The notes under the pieces were generated by a model. The model searched no databases. It was not told the DNA's origin and saw only the letters and a program-made list of their open reading frames with translations. Shown piece by piece: positions 44,297 to 60,088 of a stretch of 64,000 bases of DNA (positions are counted from its first letter, which is position 1; every line of letters starts with the position of its first letter). The stretch is from Sutcliffiella horikoshii (GTDB lineage: Bacteria > Bacillota > Bacilli > Bacillales > Bacillaceae_I). The position numbers were made by a program, and so were the translations under genes. The DNA lies in NCBI RefSeq assembly GCF_002157855.1, contig NZ_CP020880.1, positions 682,001 to 746,000 of the forward strand. Reading direction: 5' to 3'.

Positions 44297-45361
44297 TTAT
44301 TCCTCTGAAAAAACATCTGAAATCACAGCATCCAACGCATCCAAATCCTCGCGACCGACCATTTTATACTTACATTTCCCACTGCGCAGATAACTGTAGA
44401 TAATTTGCGCTTTATCGATTTCAAAGCGGCTTACTTCACGTGCCGAAGCAGGTCCGGCATCGGCCAGTTCACGCGAAAGCCGTGCGAAAATATCGTGACG
44501 TACTTCCTCACTCACACCGTTCCCACCGCCATAAACCTCACTAAACAACACATCCGTCCTCCTGATCACAAAGCATTTCACTCTGTTTTCATCCAATCTT
44601 TCCACCACGAGCATTAAGTGATTTCCTTCCGTAAAGTCCATCACATCTTCTTTTTGCAAGAGTGCCTGCAAGGATTGAATGCAGTTGCGGTATTTGGCTG
44701 CACGTTCAAAATCCAGGTCGGCAGCAAGCTGGTTCATCTCCCGCTGCATGTCTTCGAGCAACTCTGCACTTTCCCCATTAAGCAAGGCGATGAGCTGTTC
44801 CACACTGGCATTGTATTCTCCGACCGCTTTGCCGCCAAGACAGATGCCGCGGCAAAGACCAAGGGAATAATTTAGGCAAGGAGATCCGTTGATGGCGGGG
44901 TTAGAGCAGTTTAGTCGGTACACATCTTTCAATCCTCGTATCGCAAAGCTGACTGTTTTTCTGCTTGTATAGGGGCCAAAGCTCCAGCCGCCGCCGCCGC
45001 GCAAGGGCTGGGTGGATGGACGGAGGCGATAGAGCTTGCCGACTTTTCGAATCGTTAAATAGAGGAAGGCCTCTGGTGTTTTCATTTGTCGGTTGTATTG
45101 TGGGCGGATTTCTTGGATAAGCTGCCATTCGAGCAGTAGGGCTTCGAATTCCGTATCCGTCTCGATGATCTCTAAATCTCTTATATGTTTGACGAGTTTT
45201 CGGATCTTGTTTGAGTGATTGGATGACTCCCTGAAGTAGGACTGAACTCGCTGACGAAGGCGTTTTGATTTTCCGACATAGATGACTTGGCCAATAGAGT
45301 CTTTCATAAGATAAACGCCTGGTGTTGCAGGGATTTCTTTTATTTTTTGTACGAGACTCAT
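44297..45361 (-). CDS. Short UvrC-like GIY-YIG endonuclease (Cho-like)
   Basis: 354 residues: N-terminal GIY-YIG nuclease domain (PGVYLMKDSIGQVIYVGKSKRLRQRVQSYF; Tyr, Arg and later Glu conserved), a UvrC-type Cys-containing middle (LNCSNPAINGSPCLNYSLGLCRGICLGG), and a UVR-like motif (LAADLDFERAAKYRNCIQSL). The C-terminal RNase H-like nuclease and HhH domains of full UvrC (about 600 residues) are absent, as in E. coli Cho, which makes only the 3' incision of nucleotide excision repair. The start has AGGTGA upstream. Confidence 0.87.
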   Translation of the reverse strand: MSLVQKIKEIPATPGVYLMKDSIGQVIYVGKSKRLRQRVQSYFRESSNHSNKIRKLVKHIRDLEIIETDTEFEALLLEWQLIQEIRPQYNRQMKTPEAFLYLTIRKVGKLYRLRPSTQPLRGGGGWSFGPYTSRKTVSFAIRGLKDVYRLNCSNPAINGSPCLNYSLGLCRGICLGGKAVGEYNASVEQLIALLNGESAELLEDMQREMNQLAADLDFERAAKYRNCIQSLQALLQKEDVMDFTEGNHLMLVVERLDENRVKCFVIRRTDVLFSEVYGGGNGVSEEVRHDIFARLSRELADAGPASAREVSRFEIDKAQIIYSYLRSGKCKYKMVGREDLDALDAVISDVFSEE

Positions 45362-45546
45362 GACCAATCACCTCTCTCAAATAGCAACAACCTTTTAGAA
45401 AAGAGTTCTCTAGGAAGATAGTTCTATGTTTAAATTTTCGAAACCTTACAAAAACGTGTATGTTCATGTAGAATTAGAAGTGTCATTACTTAATAGATTA
45501 CCAAAGAAAATAGGAAACTAACAAGAAATTAGAGGGGGTCATTCAA

Positions 45547-46623
45547 TTGAGCAGGGAAACATGGAAAAAGGTATTTAGTACGATTCCAGATGTGGAATTG
45601 GTGGAGTTAGCGGACTTTTGGTCGATACAGGTAAAAGGTTTTCGCCAAATAAATCAGGAAAATATAAAACACGCAAGGGCGATGGTCATCACAGAGGCAT
45701 TGAAACCGCGAAATCTGAAAATGATTAAAGCTTATTACACGATAAACGATGACGAAACAGATGAACCGGCAGACAAAGGAGAAGAGATTACGCTGGATGC
45801 ATTGATTGAGATATATGAAGAAGGGAAAGAGTTGCATCTGATCCTTGGAGGCTTGTATGCGAGCGAAGAGGAGAAGTTTGAAAAGCTTGCGTTGGAGCTG
45901 GAAGAGGCGTTGCTAGAAAAATATAAGGTGGATGATTTAAGTAGTCTTGTAGACAGCAAGGAAAAAAAGGAAGATGAGGTCCCGCAGGAAAAAGGGGAGT
46001 CCAAGTCCACATCGGAGTGGGAGAAAAAATGGAATAAATCGGAAGACAAGAATAAGGATCTGCGTGCGAAAATAGGGGAGTGGGAGAAAAAGTACTCTCA
46101 GTTAAAGCAGCAATCTAAGGAAGAGAAACAATCGGCATTGAGCGAGAAGTTTAAACTGCAACAGGAACTTGGTACAGAACGGGCGCAACACAGGGAAACC
46201 GTGGAGAATAACAAGAAGACTGCCGATGAAAACGAAACGCTGAAAGAGGAAGTGGCAAAGTTGAAGGGGGAGATTTCTCACTTGAACGCGATGTTGCTTC
46301 ATCAACAGCAAGAAGTGGCCGCAACAGCAGCTAAGGTAGATGAAAAACAACCAGCTATAACGGATCAAAAGGAAGTCGTCTTGGTGGGTGATCCAAAGAA
46401 TAAATTAACAGAAAATTCAGCAAAACATACCATTCGTGTATTAGAACTGAAGGATGTTCCAGAAGCACTTGAATCGGATTGGCTTGAAAAGTGTGATGAG
46501 GTTTGGATGATGACGTATTTAGTGCCGCCACAGGTGAGACGGAAAATAAAACGAACGGTGCAGAAAAGTATAAAAGAATTTAGCGATTTCCCGACAATGA
46601 AACGTTATATAGAGAAAGGTTGA
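45547..46623 (+). CDS. Coiled-coil protein of a McrBC-like cassette
   Basis: 358 residues with three parts: an N-terminal globular region (1-130) not matching a known family, a highly charged coiled coil (about 145-265: EWEKKWNKSEDKNKDLRAKI through ETLKEEVAKLKGEISHLNAML), and a C-terminal region (about 290-358; HTIRVLELKDVPEALESDWL). TTG start with GAGGGGG 8 nt upstream. The next gene begins within about 5 nt, so it is the first gene of a three-gene operon. It probably serves as a sensor or assembly partner of the AAA+ protein (inference from order). Confidence 0.72.
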   Translation: MSRETWKKVFSTIPDVELVELADFWSIQVKGFRQINQENIKHARAMVITEALKPRNLKMIKAYYTINDDETDEPADKGEEITLDALIEIYEEGKELHLILGGLYASEEEKFEKLALELEEALLEKYKVDDLSSLVDSKEKKEDEVPQEKGESKSTSEWEKKWNKSEDKNKDLRAKIGEWEKKYSQLKQQSKEEKQSALSEKFKLQQELGTERAQHRETVENNKKTADENETLKEEVAKLKGEISHLNAMLLHQQQEVAATAAKVDEKQPAITDQKEVVLVGDPKNKLTENSAKHTIRVLELKDVPEALESDWLEKCDEVWMMTYLVPPQVRRKIKRTVQKSIKEFSDFPTMKRYIEKG

Positions 46624-46628
46624 GAGAG

Positions 46629-48656
46629 ATGAATAAGGTTTGGGAGAATGACTTAGTTGGTGTGCTGGCAGATGTGGATCAAAGTGAGCTACTTTACAGG
46701 GACTCCATTTTAATAAATAAGCAGGACAGTCTCCAGTTTTTTGTCCGAATCATTTCACAGCCTGCCGAAAGCTTTCCGAATGTCAAAGCGGTAACAGGAT
46801 TCTATTCGGATTTGGAGAAATGGGGATTTGAAGATGATTATTTGCAGCCGGAATTTATTCGGAAAGAAAAATTACGCGAATGGTTGGATGATCGGCTGTT
46901 AATTTTCAAGGTGGAAAAACGCATTCGTTACAATCATGAAGAAGTGTATAACATGTTCGGTGTGAGGGTGATGCCAAAGCTGCCAAGTTATGAAAAAGAT
47001 TTGAAGCTGATTCCTGTTCCTATTTTCAGCAAAAAAGTAAATGGGATGGAGCAGGTTGAATTCATTTCAAGGCTTGTAGAGAAGAAATTTGTCGGCCGCA
47101 TTGCAGAAGTGTCGCATGAGACGAATGATACCCCTCCGATTGTGCTTTGGAAGGAAGAAACGGAAGAGGATGAACAATTTACCGTGTACGGCGTGTTTGA
47201 AAAACATCAATATGCGCATGGTGGTTTCAACTTTGAATTGCGGGATGAGTTGAAAGGGTTGGACTTGGAGGAAGAGTGGCTTGATGAGTGCTACCTCACG
47301 GATGAAAGTCCAAATGTTGCATTTTTGCCAATTGGGTTTTATCAAGAGTTATTGAATCGTTTAGAAGAACAAGAGGTGGTACAGGTATCTAGCGAGTTTG
47401 CTAGAGAAAATTACCCGCAAGAGACGGGGAGCGGGTCAGCTTCCTTAGAGCAGCAAGCCTCACCGGACATTCAAAGCAGCAGGCAAGAAGTTGCCGTTAC
47501 GGTGATGGAAAAGCCGACAAGCGAAAATAATGTATTGGCAACAAAGGAAAACGAAAAGGAACAGGAGTTTTTGGAGCTTCTATACAGTCATACGCAGGAT
47601 GCCGGACTCATCTATCGAAAAGAAAACTTGATTAATTTTCATACTTCCATGAAGTCATCCTCACTTGTGATCTTGTCAGGGATGAGCGGAACGGGGAAAA
47701 CGAAGCTGGTGGAGTTGTACAGTCAGTCACTCGGGTTAAAAGGAGAGCAGCTTACAGTCATTCCGGTAAGTCCGTCCTGGACGTCGGATTCTGATCTAAT
47801 CGGTTATGCGGACACGCTGAATATGGTGTACCGTCCTGGGGATTCCGGGCTGATTAATGCCCTTCGAAAAGCGGAAGATGATAAGGATAAGCTTTATATT
47901 ATCTGCTTTGATGAGATGAATCTGGCAAGGGTGGAGCATTATTTTTCTCAGTTTTTATCGATTTTGGAAATGGATCATGGGAAGCGTGTGTTGAGACTGT
48001 ATAACGATGATTTAGAGAGCAGGTTGTATAATTCCGCTCAATATCCGCCGACCATTGTAATCCGCGAGAACGTCTTGTTTGTCGGAACCGTCAATATGGA
48101 TGAGTCGACTTATCACTTTTCCGATAAGGTGTTGGACCGGGCAAATGTGTTGTCTCTTGATGTGATGCCATTCACGGAGATGAAACAGCTTCCAGAGAAG
48201 AAAAAAGGAATGGTCGCGCGGGCCGATGAAGTCGATTATGACACGTTTGAATCTTTTCAATATAAAAATAGAAGTTTATGCCTTCAAGATGATGAACTTG
48301 CATTGTTATGGGAGATTCATCAAATGATGCAGAATGTGAACAAGCAGGTGGGGGTAGGTCCGCGGATTGTGAAGCAGATTAATCAGTATTTGGGCAATCT
48401 TCCGGTGCAGGACTATATTTTACGGGAGGATGCCTTTGATCTCCAAGTTGTCCAGCGTGTTCTGACGAAGGTGAGAGGGTCTGAAGATCAGCTAAGGGAT
48501 TTGCTTGGCCGCTATAACCGGGAAAAGGATACCGTGGAAGGTAGTTCGATTATTCGGTTATTTGACCGCTATACAAGTGTTTCGATTTTCAAGGAAAGCA
48601 GAAATGTCATCAAACAAAAAGCGAAAGAGCTGAAATATAATGGATACACCATGTAG
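46629..48656 (+). CDS. McrB-like AAA+ NTPase of a McrBC-type cassette
   Basis: About 675 residues. The N-terminal 330 residues (specificity part, unassigned) precede an AAA+ domain: Walker A GMSGTGKT (about 351-358), Walker B YIICFDEMN (about 423-431) and a sensor segment GTVNMDESTYHFSDKVLDRAN. The last corresponds to the NxxD region of McrB GTPases; here it reads NMDE, so GTP versus ATP use is open. No DUF3578 or EVE-like DNA-reading domain is obvious. ATG 46629 has AAAGG 9 nt upstream. It overlaps the nuclease gene by 17 nt. Confidence 0.83.
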   Translation: MNKVWENDLVGVLADVDQSELLYRDSILINKQDSLQFFVRIISQPAESFPNVKAVTGFYSDLEKWGFEDDYLQPEFIRKEKLREWLDDRLLIFKVEKRIRYNHEEVYNMFGVRVMPKLPSYEKDLKLIPVPIFSKKVNGMEQVEFISRLVEKKFVGRIAEVSHETNDTPPIVLWKEETEEDEQFTVYGVFEKHQYAHGGFNFELRDELKGLDLEEEWLDECYLTDESPNVAFLPIGFYQELLNRLEEQEVVQVSSEFARENYPQETGSGSASLEQQASPDIQSSRQEVAVTVMEKPTSENNVLATKENEKEQEFLELLYSHTQDAGLIYRKENLINFHTSMKSSSLVILSGMSGTGKTKLVELYSQSLGLKGEQLTVIPVSPSWTSDSDLIGYADTLNMVYRPGDSGLINALRKAEDDKDKLYIICFDEMNLARVEHYFSQFLSILEMDHGKRVLRLYNDDLESRLYNSAQYPPTIVIRENVLFVGTVNMDESTYHFSDKVLDRANVLSLDVMPFTEMKQLPEKKKGMVARADEVDYDTFESFQYKNRSLCLQDDELALLWEIHQMMQNVNKQVGVGPRIVKQINQYLGNLPVQDYILREDAFDLQVVQRVLTKVRGSEDQLRDLLGRYNREKDTVEGSSIIRLFDRYTSVSIFKESRNVIKQKAKELKYNGYTM

Positions 48657-50388
48657 CACGCAGCCTTTTTCGGTTATTTTTACACATGTTTTTCAAAATG
48701 GATCTCGGGAGGATACCGAGGTTCAAAGCTTTGTCGAGCATCTCTCAGATTGGGATGAAAGCGTACATGTCTACACGGCGATTCGGGAGAATGTGAACCT
48801 TGAGCTGCGGTTTCGATGTGAGGATCAGGGTGCAAGATGTTATATGGACGGATTTGATGGGCTAGGGGATAACAGATTGTTGGTTGATCAGGAGTCAGAG
48901 GAGAATTATCTTGGTTGCAATGGCCATGTAACACTCTTCAGGCATTCTACTTCTGATAATTATTATCCCTATATTCCCGGTCTGTACAGCTTGAGGGTGG
49001 AAACGTCAGATGGGAGGACGTTTTATACGCTCGTAAAGGTTATTTCGAACAGACTTTTTGACGATCAGCTTGCAACGATGCGCTCTGATGTAGAAGGAAA
49101 ACTAAAGGGTGTTGCCCTCGACGTCATCCGCAAACAGCATAGCCCGAAGAGTTTAGCGGCCTTGCGGATTGATCCGGTATTGTTTCGTCAGTACCAGGTG
49201 CTGCAGCATTATTTTGCGGATATATACGCCATTGTTTCTGATCTAGCCAAAAAGGTGCGGTCGTCGGTCGCGAAGGAATACCAGATGCAACCAGCTGAAA
49301 TGCCGGCGCATGTAGATGTTGTGTCCATTCAGCATCGACTGAAACGGCCAGACACGATGAATCTGGTGAAATCGGTGCATAAACGCATTAATTATGACCT
49401 GCCGGAAAATCAGATGTTGAAGGCGATTTTGGAAAAATGGAACAGGTTGTTGCATGAGTTTGTGGCTTGTATGGACACGACCATTAAAGGGTTATCGAGT
49501 CGTAAGGATTATTCCTTCTCCATTTCTCTTCCATTAGAGAGGAAACGGCGCCTTGTGGAGGAGTTAAAGGAGTATCGTGGAAAAGCGATGCGCATGAGTG
49601 GCGCGTTAAGTCTGGTTAAATCCAGCCATTGGTATCGGGAGGTGTCTTATAAAAAGGCACTTGCGGTTCCGACGGTCATGTTTGTGGATGTAAGGTACCG
49701 AAAGCTTTATCAAATCGACCAGGCTCTTCAAGGGGATGAGATTCCCGTTCACACAGGGCTTGGACAGCAGTGGAAACGAACCGATCAGTTATATGAGATT
49801 TGGGGTTGGCTGCAGGTGGTGGATGTGTTTGGCGAGATGGGCAGTGGTGAGGACGGGCAACGTGGCAGCTTCGAGATAACTAGTAAGCCTGTTGCAAAGG
49901 ATAATATGATTCAGTATAGGTTTGGCGATATCTCACTGCATATTACCTATGACGGAACCATCCCAAGCCATCCAGAAGCAACGGATAAATGGACGGTACC
50001 TGTGTATACGACTGGTACAAATAATAACCCGGATGTACGGATGGATCTGTTCTTGCGGGAGATCTATATTGGCACCATTATGATTGACATGAAGTATCGC
50101 AAGCGTCATGCGCTGACAGATTCAATGAGGCAGCTGACAAGCTATGCCGATAATGTCAGGTCTCCGTATATCTATGGGAAAAAGCGATGGCAGAAGTATC
50201 GTCCGGTGCACCAGGTGCTTGTGTTATATCCGGAAAAGCATGGTGGAATTGAAGTGGAGGAGCTGGACGGGAAAAGTATTAGTCTTGTCCCATTGACGCC
50301 TGCAGAAGATCAGACTGTTTTCCAAGAGACATTACGGTGGCTTGTGGCGGAAATGCTGTTGGAGGCAGAGGAAGAAGGGATACAGTAG
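48640..50388 (+). CDS. McrC-like DUF2357/PD-(D/E)XK nuclease of the cassette
   Basis: 582 residues. N-terminal beta-rich part, a central helical DUF2357-like region (IQHRLKRPDTMNLVKSVHKRINYDLPENQMLKAIL), the YEIWGWLQVV segment, and a C-terminal nuclease core with Asp469 (RMDLFL), Asp483-Met-Lys485 (IMIDMKYRK) and Gln498 (RQLTSYA), an intact D...DxK...Q site. McrC proteins cut DNA or RNA after stimulation by McrB. Coupled to the McrB-like gene by overlap. Confidence 0.8.
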   Translation: MDTPCSTQPFSVIFTHVFQNGSREDTEVQSFVEHLSDWDESVHVYTAIRENVNLELRFRCEDQGARCYMDGFDGLGDNRLLVDQESEENYLGCNGHVTLFRHSTSDNYYPYIPGLYSLRVETSDGRTFYTLVKVISNRLFDDQLATMRSDVEGKLKGVALDVIRKQHSPKSLAALRIDPVLFRQYQVLQHYFADIYAIVSDLAKKVRSSVAKEYQMQPAEMPAHVDVVSIQHRLKRPDTMNLVKSVHKRINYDLPENQMLKAILEKWNRLLHEFVACMDTTIKGLSSRKDYSFSISLPLERKRRLVEELKEYRGKAMRMSGALSLVKSSHWYREVSYKKALAVPTVMFVDVRYRKLYQIDQALQGDEIPVHTGLGQQWKRTDQLYEIWGWLQVVDVFGEMGSGEDGQRGSFEITSKPVAKDNMIQYRFGDISLHITYDGTIPSHPEATDKWTVPVYTTGTNNNPDVRMDLFLREIYIGTIMIDMKYRKRHALTDSMRQLTSYADNVRSPYIYGKKRWQKYRPVHQVLVLYPEKHGGIEVEELDGKSISLVPLTPAEDQTVFQETLRWLVAEMLLEAEEEGIQ

Positions 50389-50409
50389 AGTAGAACAACA
50401 GGTATATTG

Positions 50410-50443
50410 GCAAAGCTCCCGTTTTGGGGGAGCTTTGTTTTTT
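50410..50443 (+). terminator. Terminator after the McrBC-like operon
   Basis: GCAAAGCTCCC pairs with GGGAGCTTTG, followed by TTTTTTG. A near-identical hairpin follows mtlD at 59919. Confidence 0.85.
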
Positions 50444-50455
50444 GTTTTGGAGGGC

Positions 50456-50552
50456 TAAAATGGATATATTGCATTTACAATGGATATATGACTTTTATGA
50501 TGGATATATTGTTTTTACAATGGATATATCCCCGCTTACAATGGATAAGTCC
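50456..50552. repeat. ~20-bp tandem repeat, five units (AATGGATATAT family, first locus)
   Basis: Five units spaced 19-21 bp share ACAATGGATATAT. The array directly follows the terminator hairpin. Almost the same composite occurs at 59919-60088. Confidence 0.85.
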
Positions 50553-59970: not shown

Positions 59971-60088
59971 GCTAAAATGGATATATTGGATTTACAATGG
60001 ATATATAACTTTTACGATGGATATATCGTTTTTACAATGGATATGTCCCCACTTACAATGGATATATCATTTTTACAATGGATAAGAC
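59971..60088. repeat. ~20-bp tandem repeat, six units (AATGGATATAT family, second locus)
   Basis: Six units share ACAATGGATATAT. They align closely with 50456-50552, with one extra unit, and again follow directly on a GCAAAGCTCCC hairpin. The remaining gap 60089-60213 shows only a ribosome binding site for the next gene. Confidence 0.87.

Follow-up and report, generated by a model that had tools for sequence, protein, structure and literature searches.

The window analysed here, a 64,000-nt stretch of the 4.3-Mb genome of Sutcliffiella horikoshii (G000:C1:682001-746000), contains a three-gene operon on the + strand at positions 45547..50388 (4.8 kb), cnuA-cnuB-cnuC, encoding a separate coiled-coil protein (CnuA), an McrB-like AAA+ protein (CnuB), and an McrC-like protein (CnuC). 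An initial annotation of the window had described a cassette of McrBC-like or CoCoNuT-like genes separated or overlapping by a few nucleotides. The three open frames were recovered, with a revised start for cnuB, and the NxD motif of CnuB, the separate CnuA, and the DUF2357 and PD-(D/E)XK domains of CnuC allowed the family assignment to be made precise: we predict that the operon is a Type I-B CoCoNuT, that is, a putative Type IV-like restriction/defence system with CnuC as the nuclease, and we put the probability of this reading at about 0.82. The S. horikoshii operon thereby adds one more member to a class of systems that Bell et al. described in 2024 (PMC11090510).

All motifs that had been noted in the AAA+ protein were found, namely GMSGTGKT, FDEMN, and NMDE; G-x-S-G-x-G-K, D-E-M-N, and N-x-D-E were conserved in 35 of 35 sequences, as was R507. 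The NxD site corresponds to N492-M-D494-E495 when CnuB is numbered from TTG. The initial annotation had noted NMDE in place of NTAD as leaving the nucleotide open. The replacement is not peculiar to this CnuB: NxD for NxxD, in most cases with D or E as the next residue, is the published signature of the CoCoNuT branch (PMC11090510). CnuB matched Pfam AAA_5 (2.6e-7, above the curated cut-off), the PADLOC candidate-defence model PDC-M26A (4e-48), and E. coli McrB chains (4.9e-5). In CnuC, the nuclease site had been given as D469...D483-x-K485...Q498. The P-D...(D/E)-x-K motif was intact in 35/35 sequences, position 483 being D in 34 and E in one; because D465 was kept in all 35 and D469 in 33, the catalytic Asp is probably D465 and not D469, while Q498 was replaced in two sequences. 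The expected alignment of this region with PD-(D/E)XK enzymes was borne out by PDDEXK_7 matches in 23 of 24 CnuC homologues (best, 2.1e-10), and DUF2357 was also found in 23 of the 24. The PADLOC model PDC-M26B matched up to five of these 24 homologues, by one model.

These three genes recur together. The order cnuA-cnuB-cnuC was found at 34/34 homologous loci and, since eight of these had been located through CnuA itself, the unbiased count is 26/26; with a trio at every locus carrying the second and third genes, the cassette is not a product of chance. At 30 loci, the first gene was a CnuA homologue by BLASTP; at the other four, it was identified by position and inspection, and the upstream gene, with a coiled coil and a recognisable end, was read as CnuA-like. 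The 17-nt overlap between cnuB and cnuC was exact at 32 of the 34 loci and annotated likewise in all five unbroken plasmid copies; its persistence while CnuC identity drops to 20-25% points to translational coupling of the two genes. Among eight named relatives (S. horikoshii and allied 'Bacillus' strains), CnuC identity ranged from 97 to 71%. The start of cnuB is probably ATG 46629 rather than TTG 46620; its Met was aligned in 34 of 35 homologues, and its use would leave a 5-nt gap after cnuA.

The 35-row alignments consisted of the window and 34 loci, 26 found via CnuB or CnuC and eight via CnuA; duplicate copies (L116-L126) and five loci of MrcB_N paralogues (L090-L094) were left out. CnuC matches were obtained in 38 genomes, 26 of which were pursued further, and 12 genomes with weak matches (E 3e-6 to 9e-4; G038, G137, G172, G192, G217, G240, G261, G299, G302, G321, G360, and G378) were omitted. 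The CnuA alignment comprised the window and 30 rows. Alignments A1, A2, and A3 had 21, 25, and 24 rows after removal of near-identical genus members; A7 was built without L088, L089, and L095, A9 without L133, and A10 and A11 without L095. The features of the operon are collected in Table 1. Promoter-like sites numbered 17 in the scanned region versus 9.4 in shuffles, and terminator-like sites seven versus 3.7. The neighbours of the operon, which encode a GIY-YIG/UVR-motif protein on one side and a histidine kinase on the other, lie on the opposite strand.

Table 1. Predicted features of the cnuABC operon (window positions)
Feature	Position	Strand	Basis or remark
Promoter-like site CTTACA-N18-TAGAAT	45445..45474	+	72 nt 5' of cnuA; consensus scan only, 9/12 matches
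cnuA, separate coiled-coil protein, 358 aa	45547..46623	+	Open reading frame; CnuA-like gene at 34/34 loci
CnuA coiled-coil helix, residues 155-261	46009..46329	+	AlphaFold2; predicted local distance difference test score (pLDDT) 83-92 for 161-250, lower at ends
CnuA C-terminal alpha/beta domain, residues 272-358	46360..46620	+	Model pLDDT 61-83 for 291-358, <50 for 272-290
cnuB, McrB-like AAA+ NTPase	46629..48656	+	675 aa from ATG 46629; 678 aa from TTG 46620
CnuB N-terminal region, residues 1-240	46629..47348	+	Conserved in alignment A7; no meaningful PDB sequence, CSD, or EVE match
Walker A GMSGTGKT	47679..47702	+	G-x-S-G-x-G-K in 35/35
Walker B FDEMN	47907..47921	+	DEMN in 35/35
NxD signature NMDE	48093..48104	+	N, D, E in 35/35
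cnuB/cnuC overlap, 17 nt	48640..48656	+	Exact at 32/34 loci
cnuC, McrC-like protein, 582 aa	48640..50388	+	DUF2357 match
DUF2357 domain of CnuC, residues 114-359	48979..49716	+	Pfam PF09823, 3.8e-7, above curated cut-off
PD-(D/E)XK motif P464-D465 ... D483-x-K485	50029..50094	+	P, D, K in 35/35; D/E at 483 in 35/35
Terminator-like hairpin and T run	50409..50439	+	20 nt 3' of cnuC; 12-pair stem

According to Bell et al. (PMC11090510), Type I-B CoCoNuTs belong to the NxD branch of McrB, encode a separate coiled-coil CnuA, and occur mainly in Bacillota. The window operon agrees with this description in its separate coiled-coil gene, its AAA+ protein with NxDE, its DUF2357 and PD-(D/E)XK partner, and its host phylum; it differs in that the C-terminal domain of CnuA has no conserved phosphoacceptor Asp, that CSD and YTH domains were not detected in CnuB, and that most of the examined genomes of the genus have it at one and the same site, a point not mentioned in the available portions of Bell et al. 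The Pseudo-Type I-B systems of Bacillus, for which those authors suggested a domesticated role, are close relatives of Type I-B defined by the loss of CnuA; this candidate was ruled out, as cnuA is present at 45547-46623. A three-gene operon of Staphylococcus aureus JSNZ, assigned to Type I-B by its authors and likened to ours by description only, lies in a lineage-specific island-like structure, and two of its genes are interrupted by stops in another strain (PMC12554148). PADLOC PDC-M26, with its A and B models, shares with the window the CnuB match, whereas window CnuC and CnuA had no significant match to PADLOC models. Of the other types, Type II CoCoNuT has been reported, among other systems, to give P. 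aeruginosa protection from one or more phages (PMC12735699), and a Type IV group was added in a 2025 preprint (PMC12458937). A Streptococcus thermophilus survey that included PADLOC candidates made no mention of McrB, McrC, or DUF2357 in the text available (PMC11514479).

A canonical methyl-dependent McrBC with a coiled-coil gene adjacent by accident would account for the AAA_5 match and the weak match to E. coli McrB; E. coli McrBC likewise pairs a Walker-motif AAA+ protein with a DUF2357/PD-(D/E)XK protein, and its ring-and-stimulator logic would be expected here. The window operon differs from it in having NxD instead of NxxD (35/35 sequences), a third, coiled-coil gene (present at 34/34 loci), and no MrcB_N match in CnuB at E values up to 1, whereas the other McrB-like protein of the same genome matches MrcB_N at 5.9e-59. 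Moreover, MrcB_N/DUF3578 was not among the best 25 of 47 Pfam families matched by 25 CnuB homologues. The NxD motif and the lack of MrcB_N in window CnuB led us to reject canonical McrBC, which we regard as highly improbable.

Further marks published for Type I are a CSD-like OB fold, often with a YTH-like domain, in CnuB, an IG-like domain in CnuC, and PYD/CARD and REC domains in CnuA (PMC11090510). The initial annotation had proposed profile comparison or structure prediction for the product of 45547-46623 and for residues 1-330 of the AAA+ protein, neither of which it had matched to a domain. The AlphaFold2 model of CnuA, based on a shallow alignment (10 sequences) and with a mean pLDDT of 63, resolved a long helix and a small C-terminal alpha/beta domain; the N-terminus was of low confidence, residues 1-125 comprising seven predicted helices and residues 1-79 mostly having pLDDT <50. 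Among 20 C-terminal domains of CnuA, G281 was present in at least 90%, a D-E-[IV]-W-x-L-x-Y-x-V-like strand was shared, and D282 after the first strand was retained in 13; no conserved phosphoacceptor Asp was found after the third strand, D occurring at positions 323, 324, and 325 in 2/20, 0/20, and 1/20 domains. Profile comparison gave a score of 18.7 with DUF2325 (40 shuffles: mean 10.3, max 14.5) and 12.2 with REC (mean 10.3, max 15.2), the null being column shuffling, an easy null without a positive control; an earlier run of 30 shuffles had given 17.5 (max 12.1) and 10.0 (max 16.1), respectively. The profile sets were REC 29/36 domains, EVE 15/18, DUF2325 14/20, and CSD 18/30 loci. These comparisons suggest that the CnuA C-terminus weakly resembles DUF2325 rather than REC; because the hhalign probability was just 7%, the likeness is a lead only. 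Residues 8-140 of CnuC, where the published immunoglobulin-like domain was sought, aligned across 23 sequences and gave a profile without a match among PDB sequences. Profile searches of PDB sequences with the CnuA C-terminus, the CnuC nuclease region, and whole CnuC returned chance-like matches, designed proteins, and coiled coils, and the CnuB N-terminus gave chance-like matches with nothing meaningful.

Relatives of the operon were found on plasmids and on a contig classed as viral. A match was present in 268 plasmid records, three of which covered at least 80% of CnuB, and seven were inspected. Five copies had an unbroken gene pair, with a 'hypothetical protein' gene close upstream in the place of cnuA (by position only), in plasmids of Lactococcus lactis (mobilizable), Companilactobacillus futsaii (conjugative), Lactiplantibacillus plantarum (mobilizable), and Pontibacillus and Paenibacillus (both typed non-mobilizable). 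The copy on an Enterococcus faecium plasmid was interrupted by insertion sequence (IS) elements, and the form on a Chlorohelix plasmid has just two genes, its AAA+ protein being annotated as containing an EVE domain. Type I restriction-modification (R-M) genes lay near the plasmid copy L137, an annotated abortive-infection protein near L136, and IS elements near several copies. Phage records yielded two partial AAA matches, and viral contigs one trio and two further pattern matches. This trio (L135:4940-9703) is divergent, with 20, 34, and 24% identity to CnuA, CnuB, and CnuC, and lies on this viral-class contig of 120 kb (IMGVR_UViG_2910903598_000004).

For the gene neighbourhoods, 212 frames within 7 kb of 23 other loci were collected; the nearest three per side of at least 120 aa amounted to 125, and one of 1986 aa was left out of the resulting set A6 of 124 proteins. 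These tallies have no background set, and enrichment is not claimed. A complete Type I R-M system adjoins the trio at L127, a Type ISP enzyme lies near that at L088, and an AAA_21 ('AbiEii toxin, putative') ATPase is a neighbour at L089. At L107 (2256-7187), genes for a UPF1-like superfamily 1 (SF1) helicase and an IetA-like AAA+ protein stand directly beside the Type I-B trio; the large gene, for which an HsdR identity was considered and rejected, is the helicase. A UPF1-like helicase (CnuH) also belongs to other CoCoNuT types (PMC11090510), and the gene at L107 may hint at a link to it. Generic UvrD-like (L109) and SMC-like (L086) matches were excluded from the defence count. No Pfam family occurred in more than three of the 124 neighbour proteins (best 25 of 121 families), so no third-party effector appears as a regular companion; twenty neighbour proteins were viewed singly, several of which had no match at all. 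Homologues were not confined to housekeeping contexts, some being on plasmids and near R-M genes, but in Sutcliffiella the operon is a fixed chromosomal resident.

Several observations weigh against the assignment to a Type I-B defence system. Clear defence neighbours were found at just 4 of the 23 other loci (among the best 25 of 285 PADLOC and 25 of 121 Pfam families), and the neighbours of the operon in the window are ordinary chromosomal genes. The match of window CnuC to PDDEXK_7 (0.083) was under the cut-off. Window CnuB had no CSD- or YTH-type Pfam match, and hhalign comparison of its residues 1-240, a weak test, scored 12.6 with CSD (null max 18.5) and 15.9 with EVE (null max 19.9). 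The N-terminus of CnuA, to which the PYD/CARD label applies, matched only designed proteins or chance-like PDB sequences, and neither the column check nor the profile comparison supported the published REC label. Finally, no experiment on a Type I-B system or on this operon was found in the open-access literature, which was available in part.

Taken as a Type I-B CoCoNuT, the operon would have a defence role by analogy with E. coli McrBC and the systems of Bell et al. On the same grounds, CnuB would form an NTP-driven AAA+ ring, and CnuC would dock on this ring via DUF2357 and stimulate hydrolysis at the NxD site. The coiled-coil CnuA would link this ring with whatever triggers the system, probably a nucleic acid that is foreign or altered and that CnuA and the CnuB N-terminus would contact; the initial annotation had likewise proposed these two parts as candidates for target recognition. 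Activation would lead to cleavage of nucleic acid by the PD-(D/E)XK domain of CnuC, the putative sole nuclease encoded in the operon. CnuA fits an adaptor or sensor in that it is present at every locus, contains a coiled coil, and had the highest dN (nonsynonymous substitution rate) of the three genes in 6/6 close pairs. DNA would be a likelier target than RNA in this subtype because the McrC-type motif is unbroken in all CnuC proteins examined and the trio was not observed to have a further nuclease gene as its companion. The same system might instead act on tRNA, rRNA, or mRNA with abortive infection as the outcome, as Bell et al. (PMC11090510) propose for CoCoNuTs in general; their prediction draws on the CSD- and YTH-like domains of Type I CnuB and on RNases in other types. 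Given that the only encoded nuclease here is of the McrC type, with its motif intact in 35/35 sequences, and that no CSD or EVE signal was seen in the CnuB N-terminus by the weak test above, we hold an RNA target to be a possible but tentative alternative.

The main oddity of the S. horikoshii operon is its presence at the same chromosomal site in most genomes of the genus examined. It occupies this site in 12 of 16 Sutcliffiella genomes, adjoined by the GIY-YIG gene in 12/12 and by the histidine kinase gene in 10/12, and the twelve copies form one clade with 100/100 support. The ratio of nonsynonymous to synonymous substitution rates (dN/dS) in six close pairs was 0.09-0.15 for cnuA, 0.04-0.07 for cnuB, and 0.04-0.10 for cnuC, with dS near or above 1 in one of the pairs; the operon is under purifying selection at this site. 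In G011 and G017, the operon is lacking between the same flanking genes, which are separated by 152 bp and about 24 bp, and copies are found at other places; in G004, the kinase gene adjoins a methyltransferase gene with no operon between. No operon was found in G003 (80% complete) or G004. The copy of G017 pairs in the tree with one from another family (100/97), indicating horizontal transfer, although some deep branches are long and their placement is unsure. The CnuB N-terminus was found in 24 of 397 genomes, 14 in the genus and 10 among about 380 others of the order. A search of the class for CnuA gave 11 of 398 genomes, eight of them new to the sample. CoCoNuT trios are thus horizontally mobile in general and long retained at one site in Sutcliffiella.

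The fixed site, the single clade, and the purifying selection are also what a domesticated core-chromosomal function derived from a CoCoNuT, such as a stress response or cell regulation, would produce in Sutcliffiella. However, the relatives are patchy and partly on plasmids, and two genus members hold copies elsewhere and two have none found, which makes the operon dispensable; we therefore consider domestication unlikely. The GIY-YIG gene (window 44297-45367, - strand), encoding a GIY-YIG and UVR-motif protein like a shortened UvrC, is outside the cassette, since G003, G011, and G017 keep it without an adjoining operon. The REC label would suggest that the operon works together with the neighbouring histidine kinase/LytTR pair; we rejected this idea because relatives with an empty site still keep the kinase there, and copies at other sites were not seen to have it as a neighbour. 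More speculatively, and at rather long odds, CnuA might be a DUF2325-like sensor across the subtype, possibly of a ligand and not of phosphorylation, linked to CnuBC through its coiled coil, and the Sutcliffiella CoCoNuT might have settled in the chromosome to serve more than defence against phages.

Specialists may wish to note that the operon keeps one site within a genus, that its 17-nt overlap is strictly conserved, that the catalytic Asp is probably D465, and that the receiver label of CnuA is in doubt. According to Bell et al. (PMC11090510), no NxD McrB had been characterised. With a length of 4.8 kb and promoter- and terminator-like sites of its own, the operon is a compact and convenient object; twelve natural variants share a single site, which is empty in other relatives. 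It could serve to ask what CnuA senses, whether NxD enzymes use one nucleotide or another, and whether DNA or RNA is cleaved.

Some minor observations concern individual genomes. Four related Sutcliffiella CnuC proteins (L102, L103, L104, and L105) have an insertion of ~55-70 residues after about residue 400 (window numbering), ahead of the nuclease motif. The insertion, in which the phrase G-D-R-L-V recurs, is missing from window CnuC and the other printed rows. G007 holds, besides the fixed-site operon, a second, very divergent CnuA/B/C-like trio (L095), which has the longest branch of the tree. The second McrB-like protein of S. horikoshii (855 aa; G000:C1:643579-644709, L090:9161-11728), about 83 kb upstream of the operon, matches MrcB_N as given above yet also has an NxDE motif, and 855-aa relatives occur in four other genomes of the genus. 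Two arrays of a 20-bp tandem unit with the consensus AATGGATATATTGCTTTTAC lie in the same orientation 9.5 kb apart (window 50455-50550 and 59972-60067), and the genome contains 13 exact 15-bp cores of the unit (reversed control, 0). At L099 and L100, the genes 3' of cnuC are those found beyond the second array in the window, the kinase-to-mtlD segment being absent, and at L097 the mtl part is absent; these losses look as if the tandem arrays recombine.

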